From IMG/VR virus record IMGVR_UViG_3300008110_000397, positions 1 through 43,442 of that record: 43,442 nucleotides of DNA; one strand, given 5' to 3'. Under the pieces are notes generated by a model that saw nothing but the letters and a program-made list of their open reading frames with translations, was not told the origin of the DNA and made no database searches. This document shows, in pieces, positions 17,378 to 43,442 of the stretch (positions within the stretch are counted from its first letter, which is position 1; each line of letters begins with the position of its first letter). This stretch comes from a virus. The position numbers and the translations under genes are program-made.

Positions 17378-20300
17378 CAAAGACATGGTTGCCGTCAGAA
17401 ATGTTTTGTCCAAGAAATACGGCAAGATTACCGATGAAGACATGATGTTGTTCCAGATGTTCGCTGGCATTACTTCACCGAACACTGGATTAAAGTCAAA
17501 TATCGGAGATGCGCTTGCCCTGTTTGAGCTGTACAAAACAGACGGTAATTTTGACAAAATCAAGATGGGCCTGAGTGACAAAAATAATCTTGTCATTATG
17601 GAATCGCCATTTCAGATTTCAGGAGTAACAAATCCCCTCAAAGCTCGTTCCCTGAAAGTATTTGAACGCATAATTAAACAAAAAGGTTCTGTTGCAAAAG
17701 CGGTCAAGTTCCTTCACGAGCCTGTAACAATAGAAGAGCTTGAAAAGTTTAAACAAAGTTTTGGTTACAAAGAACTTGCCGATAAGAAAGACATTAAGCG
17801 TAATGTAGAAAGCGCCACAGGACAAGACAAGCTAATTCCTCGTATGTTTGTGTTTGGCCCGAAAATTGGAGCGTACTCACTCAATTTGACTGGCAATCGA
17901 AAGTACACTACTATTGACATCTGGGAGTCCAGATTCATCCGTAGTTACTTCAAGGGTCTGTTTGAAAAACGAAACGGACTGCCAGAAATAAATGAAGAGC
18001 ATGAGCTGTTTACCAACTTCAATAAACTCTTCAAGGAAGAGTTCGACAAACTAACTGGACAGAATTGGGACCAAGCCTCGCTTCAGGCGATGCGTTGGTT
18101 CTACATCATCAACGCTACAAACAAAGCTGGATACACAGGAGCATCCACCAATGACACAATCTCAGGATACACAGAACGACAGCTCTACACAGCTGGAAAA
18201 AGTGGCTATGTTAGCAGGGGAGAACGCGATGAATCGGCTCGCAGATACTCTCGGAAGCCAAACCGATTCTATTCTGAATCCCTTGTCGCCTTCGTTCGAC
18301 CCAATCGAGCGAGCGATGGCACGGCATCCATCCCTTACGCGAGAAGAAGCGGAGGAGATGGCTCTACTGTTCGGATTCTGAGCAACGATGTAGCTGTCGC
18401 AAAAAGCTACATACCAAATCAAGAATTCACAAACATCGTCAACGAGCTTGGTCAAGAGGCCAAGCCGTTCTATGAGCTTGCGCCTGACCAAAATAGCGCA
18501 GAGACATTCAACAAGGCGATTTCGTTATTCAAGTCTTTGCCTAACAATAAGTACCGCGCATCTGTTTTTGTTTATCCGGCTGAAGACTACGCAAATATGC
18601 GCCTGTTCCTCACCGAAAGCGGAAAAACAGGCTTTGCCCTCAAGCCCGATGGCGACATCGTCAGCGTGTTCTCGTATGAGCAGGGCGGTCGTTCCGCTAT
18701 GGAACTGGCAATCCAGTCCGGCGGTCGGAAGCTGGACTGCTTTGACACCGTCTTGCCCGACTTCTATGCGTCCCACCTGTTCTCTGAAGCAGGTCGCGTC
18801 AAATGGGATGACAGCCAAGCTCCGGGCGACTGGGACAAAGAGGTGTTCAAAAAGTTTAACAACGGCGAGCCTGATGTTGTAATGATGGTTTATGACCCCG
18901 TTGGAAAAAGACTTACTGAGACCGCGCCTCAAATGGACTACGATGAGGCTGTTGATGCTCAATCGCAAATGCAAGCCGAGCTATCGCCTCCGATGAATGA
19001 TGGCAGTATGCCGATGTCTGCTGATTTCTCCTCGTCAAACGCCACTCAGGCACAGCTGGACGATGCTGTTGCTAAAGCCAACAAAGATACGGAGCGGACC
19101 CCTAAAACATCCGTTCCTCTGTACGGAGAAAACGCATCTCCAGACGCCTTGTTTGTCGCTTTAAACCCTGAAATGGGTGTCAAACTAAGCGTGGATGACA
19201 AGAAACGATACTCGCGCCGTGGGAGCGAGCCACAGTATCCTCCAAACATCCAAAAACTTATCGACCAGACCCCGGAACCGTCTGATGAAACGATGGGTCA
19301 AACTTTTATCAAAATTCTTCAGATGCCTTCGTCCAAAGACTTTTGGGACAATATCCGTCAAGGTCTTGTTTTCCGTGGTGCAAGGCTTGAGCGTCAGTAC
19401 AGGGAAAATCCTGAGCTTGCCAAAATGATGGCTGACACGAGTTCCCTTGCTCTTTATCAGATGACAGACCATGCCCGCGCAATTACTCAGGCGGTTATTA
19501 CCGGAGGCATTCCGGTGTATCAGAACGGTGGCTTTAAGGTCGTGCCGTTTGTTTACAAAGGTAACTCCAACATCGTTAAGTATCTGAAAGATACCGGGGT
19601 CATTGATGACGCAGGCGCACAGCTCTGGATGAAACAGTCTGATTACATCCCGTTCTACCGCGAAGACAAAAATGGCAACCTTATTCATCCGAAAGTGTTC
19701 GGTGGTCTGCATACGGCTGGACAGTTTAAAGCTGTTGGTAAGAGCAGTGAAGACCTGAATGTGGATATGGTGACAGCCATTGTCAACAACATTGATACCG
19801 CTATTGCGATGGGCATGAAGAATGTTGCCCAACAACGAATCATCCGAGACCAAATCAATCTGGGTCTTGCCAGCGTGCTTAAACAGGGTGAGACGGTAGG
19901 CAACCGTAATTCAGTTAGCTTTAAAATTGCCGGAAAGCGATACACTGCAATCATTGAAGACCCGCTGATTTACGAGTCAATGTTGCCAGCAAACGAGATT
20001 CCAATGGATGGCCTCTTTGGAACCATGTTCCGTTTCCCAGCCAACTTGCTCCGGGAACTCATTATCCGAGACCCCGGATATATGGTGGCAAATATGTTCC
20101 GAGACACTCTTTCTAGCTATGTCATTACTGGCGCAGAAGTTGTTCCGTTGTGGGGAACCGCAAAAGGCTTCGCAGGTGACATCGAGAAACTCCGTAAACT
20201 TGGCGTTATCGGTGGCTATGACCTCCGGATGGACAAGAATGGTGTCAGGGACTTCTATGACAAAGAAGCCAAGAAGATGGGCATGGTTGCCGGTGTTAAC

Positions 20301-35472: not shown

Positions 35473-35501
35473 AGTATAGATGTTATATGTGAACCTGTCA
35501 A
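35473..35501 (-). promoter_or_regulatory. Strong consensus sigma70 promoter
   Basis: On the minus strand TTGACA (complement of 35496-35501) is followed after 17 bases by TATACT (complement of 35473-35478). Transcription would start near 35466, about 19 bases before ATG 35447. This is the best -35/-10 pair in the leftward early region. Confidence 0.85.
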
Positions 35502-39311: not shown

Positions 39312-39935
39312 TTAGTCGTTGCTTTCCGTGCCAAGTGTTCCGGCATTGCCGCAACAGGGGCAGATGGAATTGTCGTTTAAACGGGCGGCTTGCATTGCCG
39401 ACACGCGAGCAGTCCACTCGCATTCGCCGCACCACAGTTTCAGGAGGCGCGTTCCCTGCTTCTTACGCAGATTCGGGTCAACCTTTGCATGGGGATAGTC
39501 ACCCAATGCGGCGGTGATTTCGGCAATCTTGGCGGCGAGTTCCTCTCCGGCAACGGTGGCGGTCAATGCACCGACCAGTCCAATCTGACGGGCGATTCGT
39601 TTAAACTCGCCCCTGTGACCACACGCATTACCTGCGTAGACATGCACCAGTTCGTGGGCGAGGACAGCGACTACATCGGCGGCATTGTCGAGGATGGGAT
39701 TGATGAACACCTCGGCAGTGCCGTCAGCACTGATGGACGGGTCGAAAGCCTGTCCTATGGTCACCTTGCCGTTGCGACTGCCGCGATACCCGATAGGGAA
39801 ACCGCAGGACACCCGATAGCGTTTGCCCTCCCATTGTGACGGTTCAATTCCGGCGGCGGTGAATACGCTGTGCTGAAGCATGACAGCGGCGGATGCGAGG
39901 TATGTTTCCCTCTCGGTGAATTTGATGTTGCTCAT
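39312..39935 (-). CDS. SprT-like zinc metalloprotease
   Basis: The protein has 207 residues. The active-site motif is HELVH (94-98) in VLAHELVHVYAGNACGHRGE, with a third ligand His107. A C-terminal zinc ribbon has CGEC (169-172) and CPCC (192-195). This is the SprT/Spartan arrangement, whose known members cut proteins off DNA. In phages such proteins lie beside MoxR-type ATPase genes, as here. The ribosome binding site is GGAGCATCACC. Confidence 0.88.
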   Translation of the reverse strand: MSNIKFTERETYLASAAVMLQHSVFTAAGIEPSQWEGKRYRVSCGFPIGYRGSRNGKVTIGQAFDPSISADGTAEVFINPILDNAADVVAVLAHELVHVYAGNACGHRGEFKRIARQIGLVGALTATVAGEELAAKIAEITAALGDYPHAKVDPNLRKKQGTRLLKLWCGECEWTARVSAMQAARLNDNSICPCCGNAGTLGTESND

Positions 39936-41153: not shown

Positions 41154-41639
41154 ATGGCAGGGAAAAAAGACGACTACGGACTCACCGAAAAACAGCTGAG
41201 ATTCGCTAACGGCGCGGTCTCCGGCTTGTCACTCGCTGACGCTTACAGGCAAGCATACGATGCAGAAAACATGAGCGAACGCGCAATCAGGACGGAAGCA
41301 TGCCGACTTGCGGCTCACCCGAATGTTGCCCGAGCGATGGAGGCGATATCAGGCGAGAAGCAGGCGAAAATGCAGGTTCTGACGGTCTCTGACCGCGACA
41401 TGCTGATAACGAACCTGAGACGATGGACAAAGGGTGACGAGACACCGACATCCGGTCAACTTCGTGCGGCTGAACTGCTTGGCAAGGCATGCGGACTCTA
41501 CCGTGATGTTGTCGAGACTCGCACCGAGAGACCGGCGGCTGAGGTACTGGCTGACATCGAGTCGCGCCTGAACGCACTAGGTGCTGAACCGATTAAACAG
41601 GTTGACGGCGGAGAGGAAACGGGCGCGTGTGTTCACTAG
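41154..41639 (+). CDS. Terminase small subunit
   Basis: The protein has 161 residues. An N-terminal helix-turn-helix (LTEKQLRFANGAVSGLSLAD, AYRQAYDAENMSERAIRTEA, CRLAAHPNVARAMEAI) is the typical opening of small terminases of the Terminase_2-like type. A helical oligomerisation part follows (VLTVSDRDMLITNLRRWTKG), and then a short basic/acidic tail. Small terminases recognise the packaging site and regulate the large subunit, encoded 540 bases downstream. The start ATG 41154 follows GAGGTGCAAAC. The last codons run into an alternating purine-pyrimidine tract. Confidence 0.85.
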   Translation: MAGKKDDYGLTEKQLRFANGAVSGLSLADAYRQAYDAENMSERAIRTEACRLAAHPNVARAMEAISGEKQAKMQVLTVSDRDMLITNLRRWTKGDETPTSGQLRAAELLGKACGLYRDVVETRTERPAAEVLADIESRLNALGAEPIKQVDGGEETGACVH

Positions 41640-41770
41640 CCGCGTGTGTGCGCGGTTATTCGTGCGCGTGTGCGTTTATACGGCGCGAGCGCGTGCGGTA
41701 ATTCGTGCGCGTGGGTGTACGCATACCCCTACCCCCCTGTGCGTGGGCGAGCGTGAGTGTGCATATACAT
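41628..41770. other. Alternating purine-pyrimidine (GT/CG) tract
   Basis: The DNA is a nearly regular alternation of G/C/T/A purine and pyrimidine steps: GTGTGTGCGCGG, GTGCGCGTGTGCG and GTGCGCGTGGGTGTACGC. TTCGTGCGCGTG is repeated at 41659-41670 and 41702-41713. A C-rich run (CCCCTACCCCCC) follows. Such sequence favours Z-DNA under negative supercoiling. A short open frame across it is probably an artefact of composition. It lies right after terS, where packaging sites are often found. Confidence 0.7.
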
Positions 41771-41868
41771 ATGAATTCACTCAAACGATTCCACACATTT
41801 GGGTTTATCGTCCCCTAAGTCCTTGATTTTACGCGACATTGTTTCCACAAAAAATTTTTTGCAAAAAA

Positions 41869-41919
41869 TTTAGCATATTTAAACAAAAACGATTGACAAC
41901 TACAGAGAAATATGCTAAA
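41869..41919 (+). promoter_or_regulatory. 12-bp inverted repeat around the terS-terL promoter (operator candidate)
   Basis: TTTAGCATATTT (41869-41880) and AAATATGCTAAA (41908-41919) are perfect inverted copies 27 bases apart. The -35 box lies between them, and the right arm covers the start of the -10 box. A third partial copy, AAATATGCT, lies at 42128-42136 in front of terL. A repressor or activator binding both arms could control the unit. TTTTTTGCAAAAAA (41855-41868) directly upstream is a perfect A/T palindrome that may act as an UP-type element. Confidence 0.75.
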
Positions 41920-41921
41920 AT
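41893..41921 (+). promoter_or_regulatory. Consensus sigma70 promoter between terS and terL
   Basis: TTGACA (41893-41898), 17 bases, TAAAAT (41916-41921). Transcription should start near 41928. A very AT-rich segment precedes it (41847-41880). Confidence 0.88.
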
Positions 41922-41927
41922 CGGAAT

Positions 41928-42092
41928 CGCAATACGAGATGGGGACGAGAGATAAGGTTTAAACTCGTCTTGAAAGGTAGAATTTTTGATTTGGATGGGT
42001 GGTTAAGAACGAGTCCACATCGATAGTGTAGGGTATAAGGTGTTAAAAGGGATTAGAGAAGTGGGTTTTGACTCATCTCTCGGTCCCTTTTT
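41928..42092 (+). ncRNA. Candidate structured RNA between terS and terL (~165 nt)
   Basis: The stretch runs from the predicted start of the promoter to an intrinsic terminator and holds no credible open frame. It contains stems: GACGAG/CTCGTC (41944-41949 with 41964-41969, GTTTAAAC in the loop), a GATG-TGG/CCACATC stem with a bulge (about 41993-42020), and the terminator stem. The compact promoter-stems-terminator order is that of a small RNA or a long attenuated leader of terL. I do not recognise an RNA family. A packaging RNA (as in phi29) is an attractive but unsupported idea. Confidence 0.55.
42045..42092 (+). terminator. Intrinsic terminator / attenuator before terL
   Basis: AAAAGGGA (42045-42052) pairs with TCCCTTTT (42084-42091), with an inner stem AGAGA/TCTCT (42055-42059 with 42076-42080). 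Five T residues end it at 42088-42092. It would stop transcripts from the promoter at 41893, either fully (small RNA) or partly (attenuation of terL). Confidence 0.75.
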
Positions 42093-42093
42093 C

Positions 42094-42108
42094 ATTACAC
42101 GGTGTAAT
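42094..42108. promoter_or_regulatory. 15-bp perfect palindrome, operator-like
   Basis: ATTACAC-G-GTGTAAT is a perfect inverted repeat directly after the terminator and 70 bases before terL. Two more short inverted repeats follow (CAAAG/CTTTG at 42112-42126 and GGGC/GCCC near 42144-42157). It may bind a dimeric regulator of terL, or shape the mRNA leader. Confidence 0.55.
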
Positions 42109-42177
42109 CTACAAAGGCAGTCTTTGGAAATATGCTGGAAACGGGGCTATTGCGCCCTGCAAAAACGAGGTTTTTAG

Positions 42178-43442
42178 ATGGGATTGACGCCAGAGTTGGT
42201 GCAGAGGATACGGAGTCTTCCGCCGGAGAAGCAACAAGAGTTTGCTGGGCTGTTGGCGGAGTATGAGACTGCATCTGGGCGAGAGTTATGTCGCACCAAG
42301 TTCATCCCGTTTGTTGAGAAGGTCTGGCCGGGATTCATTTCTGGCCGACATCACCGGATTATGGCGGAGAAGTTTGAGGCGATTGCCAATGGCTCGCTGA
42401 AACGCCTAATCATTTGCATGCCACCCCGGCACACTAAGTCTGAATTCGGTTCGTTCCACCTGCCAGCGTGGTTTTTGGGCCAGTTCCCCGGTAAGAAGGT
42501 GATTCAGGCCTCTCACACCGCTGAATTGGCGGTCGGTTTTGGTCGAAAGGTCCGAAATCTGGTCGATACGGACCAATACAAGGATATTTTCCCCGAATTG
42601 GAGCTTCGCAGTGACTCCAAAGCGGCAGGACGCTGGGATACCAGCAACGGCGGAAGCTATTTCGCTATCGGTATTGGTGGTGCCGTCACCGGTAAGGGTG
42701 CCGACCTGCTGATTATCGATGACCCGCATGATGAACAGGAAGGCCAGTCCGGCGACCCCGCCGTTTTTGACCATGCCTACGAATGGTACACCTCCGGTCC
42801 CCGTCAACGACTCCAGCCCGGCGGGGCCATCGTCATCATTGCCACCCGCTGGTCCAAACGGGACCTGATTGGTCAAGTCCTCAAGGCCTCCAGCATGCGA
42901 CAGGGCGTGGATGAGTGGGAGGTTATTGAGTTCCCAGCCATCATGCCGTCCGGTAAACCCCTTTGGCCGGAGTTCTGGCCGATTGACGAGCTGGAAGCCA
43001 TCAAGGCTGAAATCCCAATTCACAAGTGGGAAGCCCAGTATCAGCAGAACCCAGTATCCGAAGGCGCGGCTCTGGTTAAACGGGAGTGGTGGAAGGTCTG
43101 GGAGTCTAAAGAGCCACCCGGATGCGACTACCTGATTCAGTCATGGGACACCGCGTTCCTCAAAACCCAGCGGGCCGACTACTCTGCCTGCACCACATGG
43201 GGCGTGTTCTACCACCCGGACGACAATGGGAACATGCAGGCCAACATCATCCTGCTCGATGCCCACCGGGAAAAGATGGAATTCCCGACCCTGAAGAAAC
43301 GGGCGCTGGAGATGTACAACTACTGGCAACCCGATAATGTCCTCATCGAAGCCAAAGCCGCAGGCATCCCACTTATCTTTGAACTCCGGGCAATGGGTAT
43401 CCCTGTCACGGACTTCACACCGTCACGAGGCAACGATAAAAT
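42178..43442 (+). CDS. Terminase large subunit (3' end cut by window edge)
   Basis: ATG at 42178 follows GAGG at 8 bases; 421 codons are visible and the frame is open to the right edge. The N-terminal ATPase shows a Walker-A-like ICMPPRHTKSEFG and Walker B LLIIDDPHDEQEG, then motif III VIIATRWSKRDL. The C-terminal RNase H-like nuclease begins with LIQSWDTAFLKT (first catalytic Asp) and continues through NVLIEAKAAGIPL. This is the motor that translocates and cuts the DNA. The last nuclease motif lies outside. It is transcribed in the same direction as terS but separated by a promoter-terminator unit. Confidence 0.95.
   Translation, partial: MGLTPELVQRIRSLPPEKQQEFAGLLAEYETASGRELCRTKFIPFVEKVWPGFISGRHHRIMAEKFEAIANGSLKRLIICMPPRHTKSEFGSFHLPAWFLGQFPGKKVIQASHTAELAVGFGRKVRNLVDTDQYKDIFPELELRSDSKAAGRWDTSNGGSYFAIGIGGAVTGKGADLLIIDDPHDEQEGQSGDPAVFDHAYEWYTSGPRQRLQPGGAIVIIATRWSKRDLIGQVLKASSMRQGVDEWEVIEFPAIMPSGKPLWPEFWPIDELEAIKAEIPIHKWEAQYQQNPVSEGAALVKREWWKVWESKEPPGCDYLIQSWDTAFLKTQRADYSACTTWGVFYHPDDNGNMQANIILLDAHREKMEFPTLKKRALEMYNYWQPDNVLIEAKAAGIPLIFELRAMGIPVTDFTPSRGNDK

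Follow-up and report, generated by a model that had tools for sequence, protein, structure and literature searches.

The Q protein of phage 21, which binds 6-bp direct-repeat subsites between the −35 and −10 elements and makes contact at −21 and −13, takes RNA polymerase past the leader terminator (PMC6606751). AlpA acts in the same way as phage 21 Q (PMC9371919). Here we analysed the segment between the terminase genes terS and terL in the IMG/VR virus record IMGVR_UViG_3300008110_000397, whose 43,442 bases are termed the window. From its sequence features, we propose that this segment comprises the promoter and a cis-acting leader of the late operon, to which we assign a probability of about one half. 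On the best reading, the module would work in the manner of the late promoter of lambdoid phages and the leader and terminator that follow it.

The terS-terL spacer of the window spans 538 bp, and a long spacer at this position is retained in about 60 related loci. An Rfam search of the spacer gave no match at the gathering thresholds, and the hits below these thresholds all lie far under the cut-offs of the respective families. Our literature searches found no paper describing a structured RNA between terS and terL, and the transcriptome work on phage HTVC027P makes no mention of a promoter or non-coding RNA in this region. The features of the locus are listed below. An earlier note on this DNA had delimited the feature at positions 41869-42108; the core elements do lie there, but the feature extends upstream to 41850 with an AT palindrome, and downstream to 42159 with a second heptamer copy and a further hairpin (42130-42159).

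Features of the terS-terL locus, in window coordinates (., no strand assigned)
Feature	Position	Strand	Remarks
terS, terminase small subunit	41154-41639	+	phrog_51 (8e-12), phrog_1595
C-run ACCCCTACCCCCCTG	41725-41739	.	conserved in 19 of the 40 non-redundant spacers
Box ATACAT-N9-CTCAAACGAT	41765-41789	.	deeply conserved in non-redundant terS-terL spacers
AT palindrome AAAAATTTTTTGCAAAAAATTT	41850-41871	.	resembles a promoter UP element
Sigma70-type promoter TTGACA-17-TAAAAT, extended −10	41893-41921	+	layout common to 22 non-redundant leaders
Heptamer copy 1, ATATGCT	41910-41916	+	promoter positions −18 to −12
Structured non-coding leader	41928-42091	+	ends at the U-tailed hairpin; fold z −2.65 (mean of 22 leaders, −2.3)
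Candidate long-range stem, 41938-41946 with 42013-42021	41938-42021	+	invariant in all window-class sequences
Terminator-like hairpin	42045-42091	+	three pairs changed on both sides in relatives
Palindrome ATTACACGGTGTAAT	42094-42108	.	no changes within the window class; present once in the window
Heptamer copy 2, ATATGCT	42130-42136	+	just upstream of the pre-terL hairpin
Pre-terL hairpin CGGGGC-TATTGC-GCCCTG	42142-42159	+	conserved in relatives
GAGG, probable Shine-Dalgarno sequence of terL	42167-42170	+	same place in relatives
terL, terminase large subunit	42178-43440	+	phrog_38 (4e-89); contig ends inside the gene

The consensus promoter claimed in the earlier note is borne out: it matches 11 of the 12 consensus letters, carries the extended −10 TG, and is the top plus-strand site of the window in a promoter scan, in which a minus-strand site at 35501 likewise scores 11. 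Its counterpart ranks first among the extended −10 sites of three related genomes (G004, G005 and G006), with opposite-strand sites of equally high score in G004. The counterpart in G003 has a weak −35 element (TTGCTC) and is absent from the listed sites of that record. Consensus promoters were also observed in the orientation opposite to that of the late block (G004 at 42254 and 41197, minus; G003 at 39717, minus; G006 at 17696 and 20180, plus); they share similar spacers (ACA...GTTATC...TATACT-like) and perhaps represent a series of early promoters.

The gene order downstream of the promoter was examined in G003, which is circular by a 32-base end overlap. Its terL, at 44054, heads a nearly uninterrupted block of plus-strand genes that crosses the contig join, extends to ~24.5 kb and totals about 40 kb; the few small ORFs on the other strand are doubtful as genes. 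The plus-strand block of the window (84-21593) is consistent with this order. Judged from sequence only, and with the gene order taken from G003, a sigma70 promoter thus heads the late operon, as at a pR′-type promoter.

The RNA starting at this promoter is predicted to be structured and non-coding. No conserved ORF covers the leader, and its sole frame of at least 40 aa, a GTG-initiated one at 42040-42177, is disrupted in the relative L251 by an indel and an early stop, so a small ORF over the leader was rejected. A leader peptide spanning heptamer copy 2 was also rejected, on a stop codon read by eye in L164. In folding calculations, the 168-nt leader is more stable than its shuffled versions (z = −2.65), as are the 22 non-redundant leaders on average (mean z = −2.3). 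The structured segment of ~165 nt, the lack of a reading frame and the absence of a fitting RNA family, all put forward in the earlier note, agree with the present analysis. The promoter, the structured leader and the pre-terL hairpin all recur in the branch of the window. The leader varies from ~124 to 250 nt among relatives and turns over rapidly in both sequence and length.

Covariation was inspected in the window class, an alignment of five rows that represent three clearly distinct leader types (the window and L083; L251; L086 and L085). The earlier note had named three stems, of which the analysis supports only 42045-42091: three pairs are altered on both sides, accompanied by consistent one-side changes, with two broken cells in L086. 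In the stem at 41944-41969, counted as the eight pairs of 41942-41949 with 41964-41971, four of the eight pairs are broken in at least one relative and one terminal pair is changed on both sides. The stem at 41993-42020 shows no compensatory change among the three distinct sequences. The candidate long-range stem listed above is invariant, so covariation is uninformative on it.

In thirteen relatives, another hairpin is present, whose apex reads ACUC-CRRA-GGGU and which displays clear covariation: the six stem positions beside the apex pair in 11 to 13 of the 13 sequences with two or three pair types each. In the register chosen, which like the hairpin itself was set by hand, 119 of 130 cells are paired, compared to 62-83 with the arms slid. 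A hairpin pattern of the module has 33 matches among genome contigs, apparently unrelated by organism. That the module is just an ordinary late promoter followed by an untranslated leader with incidental structure appears scarcely likely. Such a reading would accommodate the window class, where one stem out of three has convincing compensatory support across three sequences, but it sits poorly with the covariation in the 13 relatives, the mean fold stability of the leaders and the matched heptamers described below.

The hairpin near 42091 is a plausible intrinsic terminator. The segment 42040-42096 folds at −23.1 kcal/mol (z = −4.6 against shuffles) and is followed by the U-rich tail TTTTTCATT, as expected from the terminator assigned in the earlier note; however, its bulged stem is not listed by a simple terminator scan, and the tail in L086 is weaker (ATTTTCATT). 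Only the three distinct sequences of the window class have the U-tailed hairpin. Most relatives have a covarying hairpin without a U tail, so termination would not be family-wide. Immediately 3′ of the terminator-like hairpin sits the palindrome ATTACAC-G-GTGTAAT.

The leader might instead be a discrete trans-acting small RNA that ends at ~42091, with a packaging RNA among the possible forms. The spacing of ~165 nt between promoter and U-tailed hairpin, together with the stable fold, would suit such an RNA, yet the rapid turnover of the leader, the restriction of the U-tailed hairpin to one small class, the negative Rfam search and the existence of phages with a related terL that lack the module make it very improbable. 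The packaging RNA suggested earlier is unsupported: we found no positive evidence for it, no Rfam match, a leader that turns over rapidly (~124-250 nt), and no module in HTVC027P, 023Pt_psg01 and DSL-LC04.

A heptamer in the promoter recurs before terL. The two copies, located via the −10 element and via the pre-terL hairpin and not via mutual similarity, are identical in all 22 non-redundant leaders, which carry six different heptamers. The limits of the match are sharp: the next upstream base agrees in 18 of the 22 leaders, and two further bases agree at chance. None of 20,000 shuffled pairings attained the observed match score. At least ~10 changes of the heptamer are counted on the terL tree, an approximate number given the weak forks of the tree; combined with the exact matches, this indicates that both copies changed together repeatedly. 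The letters following copy 2 lack A−11 and T−7 of the −10 element, and copy 2 therefore does not represent another promoter of this type. A regulator of the promoter only would leave the exact second heptamer before terL unaccounted for. The heptamer with its exact second copy thus provides a sharp and testable signature. One inverted copy (41872-41878, AGCATAT) was found in the window in a search for third or reverse-complement copies; it is not retained in relatives. TerS specificity was considered as the cause of the matching and rejected, since L184, L188, L194 and L177 share nearly the same TerS N-terminal domain and yet possess three different heptamers.

The identity of the two copies might be kept by a process at the nucleic-acid level, either site-specific exchange through an overlap of 7 bp or base-pairing between the downstream (3′) heptamer of the RNA and the template strand of the promoter, by which the leader would control its own promoter. 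The exact and sharply limited matches, the shuffling result, the ~10 concerted changes and the independence from TerS all point in this direction. On the other hand, no integrase or resolvase match (PF00589, PF00239) was obtained in seven records, some of which are possibly incomplete; no leader loss by recombination was seen among the loci with enough upstream sequence; and RNA-template pairing past the heptamer is not conserved, with the third −10 letter mismatched. A fast-evolving protein could also account for the identity. We consider such a process distinctly unlikely, and a near-3′ heptamer of the leader RNA that acts back on its own promoter by pairing or exchange very unlikely; if true, the latter would be a new control of late transcription, with copies that stay identical while the sequence drifts.

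Further upstream, the box ATACAT-N9-CTCAAACGAT occurs in 33 of 40 non-redundant terS-terL spacers against 0.15 expected, and is a candidate DNA recognition, packaging or binding site. The AT palindrome has a fairly constant position upstream of the promoter among relatives, and also lies directly before terL in isolates without the promoter. In HTVC027P, 023Pt_psg01 and DSL-LC04, which have a related terL, the palindrome adjoins terL with no promoter-leader module in between. Many spacers at 67-72% terL identity retain C-run, box and AT palindrome; they possess no heptamer pair, and phage-private palindromic iterons flank their hairpin. The iterons in the spacers of L045, L081, L029, L080 and L058 (for example AGAACGTTCT, TAAATACTATTTA and TAGGAATATTCCTA) are repeated within a phage and differ between phages, with the hairpin located between promoter and terL. 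Taken together, the promoter-leader module looks like an addition in one branch, whose members occur on dozens of metagenome contigs and have received little study.

These elements bear on a further reading, in which the spacer serves above all as a pac or cos site for DNA packaging, with hairpins and repeats as DNA elements of the terminase and a plain late promoter present by coincidence. The location between terS and terL, the conserved box, the palindrome directly before terL in the three phages above and the palindromic iterons of the wider family would all fit. Nevertheless, the heptamer is independent of the TerS N-terminal domain, the covarying hairpin of the 13 relatives has an invariant U-G wobble that is more natural for RNA, and the box with the deepest conservation is located 5′ of the promoter, beyond the present finding; we regard this reading as unlikely. 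In a pile-up of contig ends, a possible sign of a packaging end, the end sequences differ.

In addition, type II hammerhead ribozyme motifs were noticed at related loci (L097, L111, L088, L095, L009, L017, L087, L058, L081 and others), on the strand opposite to terS and mostly upstream of it. Their core reads CGAAAC / CTGATGA, their paired stems vary, and up to three occur per locus; two were scored by Rfam, both below the gathering threshold. No such core was found in the window.

Among the three options of the earlier note, a small RNA, an attenuated terL leader and a packaging RNA, the leader fits best, because terL opens a long block of co-directional genes, has the promoter directly upstream and is separated from it by covarying RNA structure. 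In the late-operon leader that we propose, a strong host-type promoter would start a hairpin-forming non-coding RNA of some 130-250 nt; in the window phage, the terminator-like hairpin would be reached ~165 nt into the leader, before terL. Some polymerases may stop or pause within the leader, and a factor of phage or host origin, which probably targets the leader RNA or the heptamer within the promoter, could allow read-through into terL and the structural genes late in infection. We infer that the module is transcribed, that its hairpin terminates transcription and that read-through is regulated.

Compared with known systems, the phi29 prohead (packaging) RNA is likewise a structured non-coding phage RNA considered for packaging, but the present locus differs in its lack of an Rfam match, its rapid leader turnover and its terminase of the terS-terL type. 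The pac and cos sites of tailed phages are likewise non-coding stretches next to terminase genes and contain repeated motifs, whereas here a strong promoter, covarying RNA hairpins and a heptamer that does not track TerS are found. The AlpA-dependent alpBCDE promoter of Pseudomonas aeruginosa resembles the module in having an element between −35 and −10 and an intrinsic terminator downstream (here a candidate one); it drives a bacterial cell-lysis operon and its element is at another position. No Q-like or AlpA-like gene was identified among the subset of proteins scanned, and no clear −10-like pause element was seen after the start site, a region that is T-rich and conserved in relatives. The comparison with lambdoid Q accordingly draws on the position of the heptamer, close to subsite 2 of the phage 21 Q-binding element (QBE), and on the layout, not on a Q protein. 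Similar to the lambdoid pR′ with its leader, tR′ and Q (lambda and 21), the locus has a strong sigma70 promoter that heads the late genes, a short non-coding leader with a hairpin terminator candidate, and a constrained element between −35 and −10. It differs in the second heptamer 120-250 nt downstream and in having terL first instead of lysis genes, and, if confirmed, would add a late switch built on a leader in phages that are not lambdoid.
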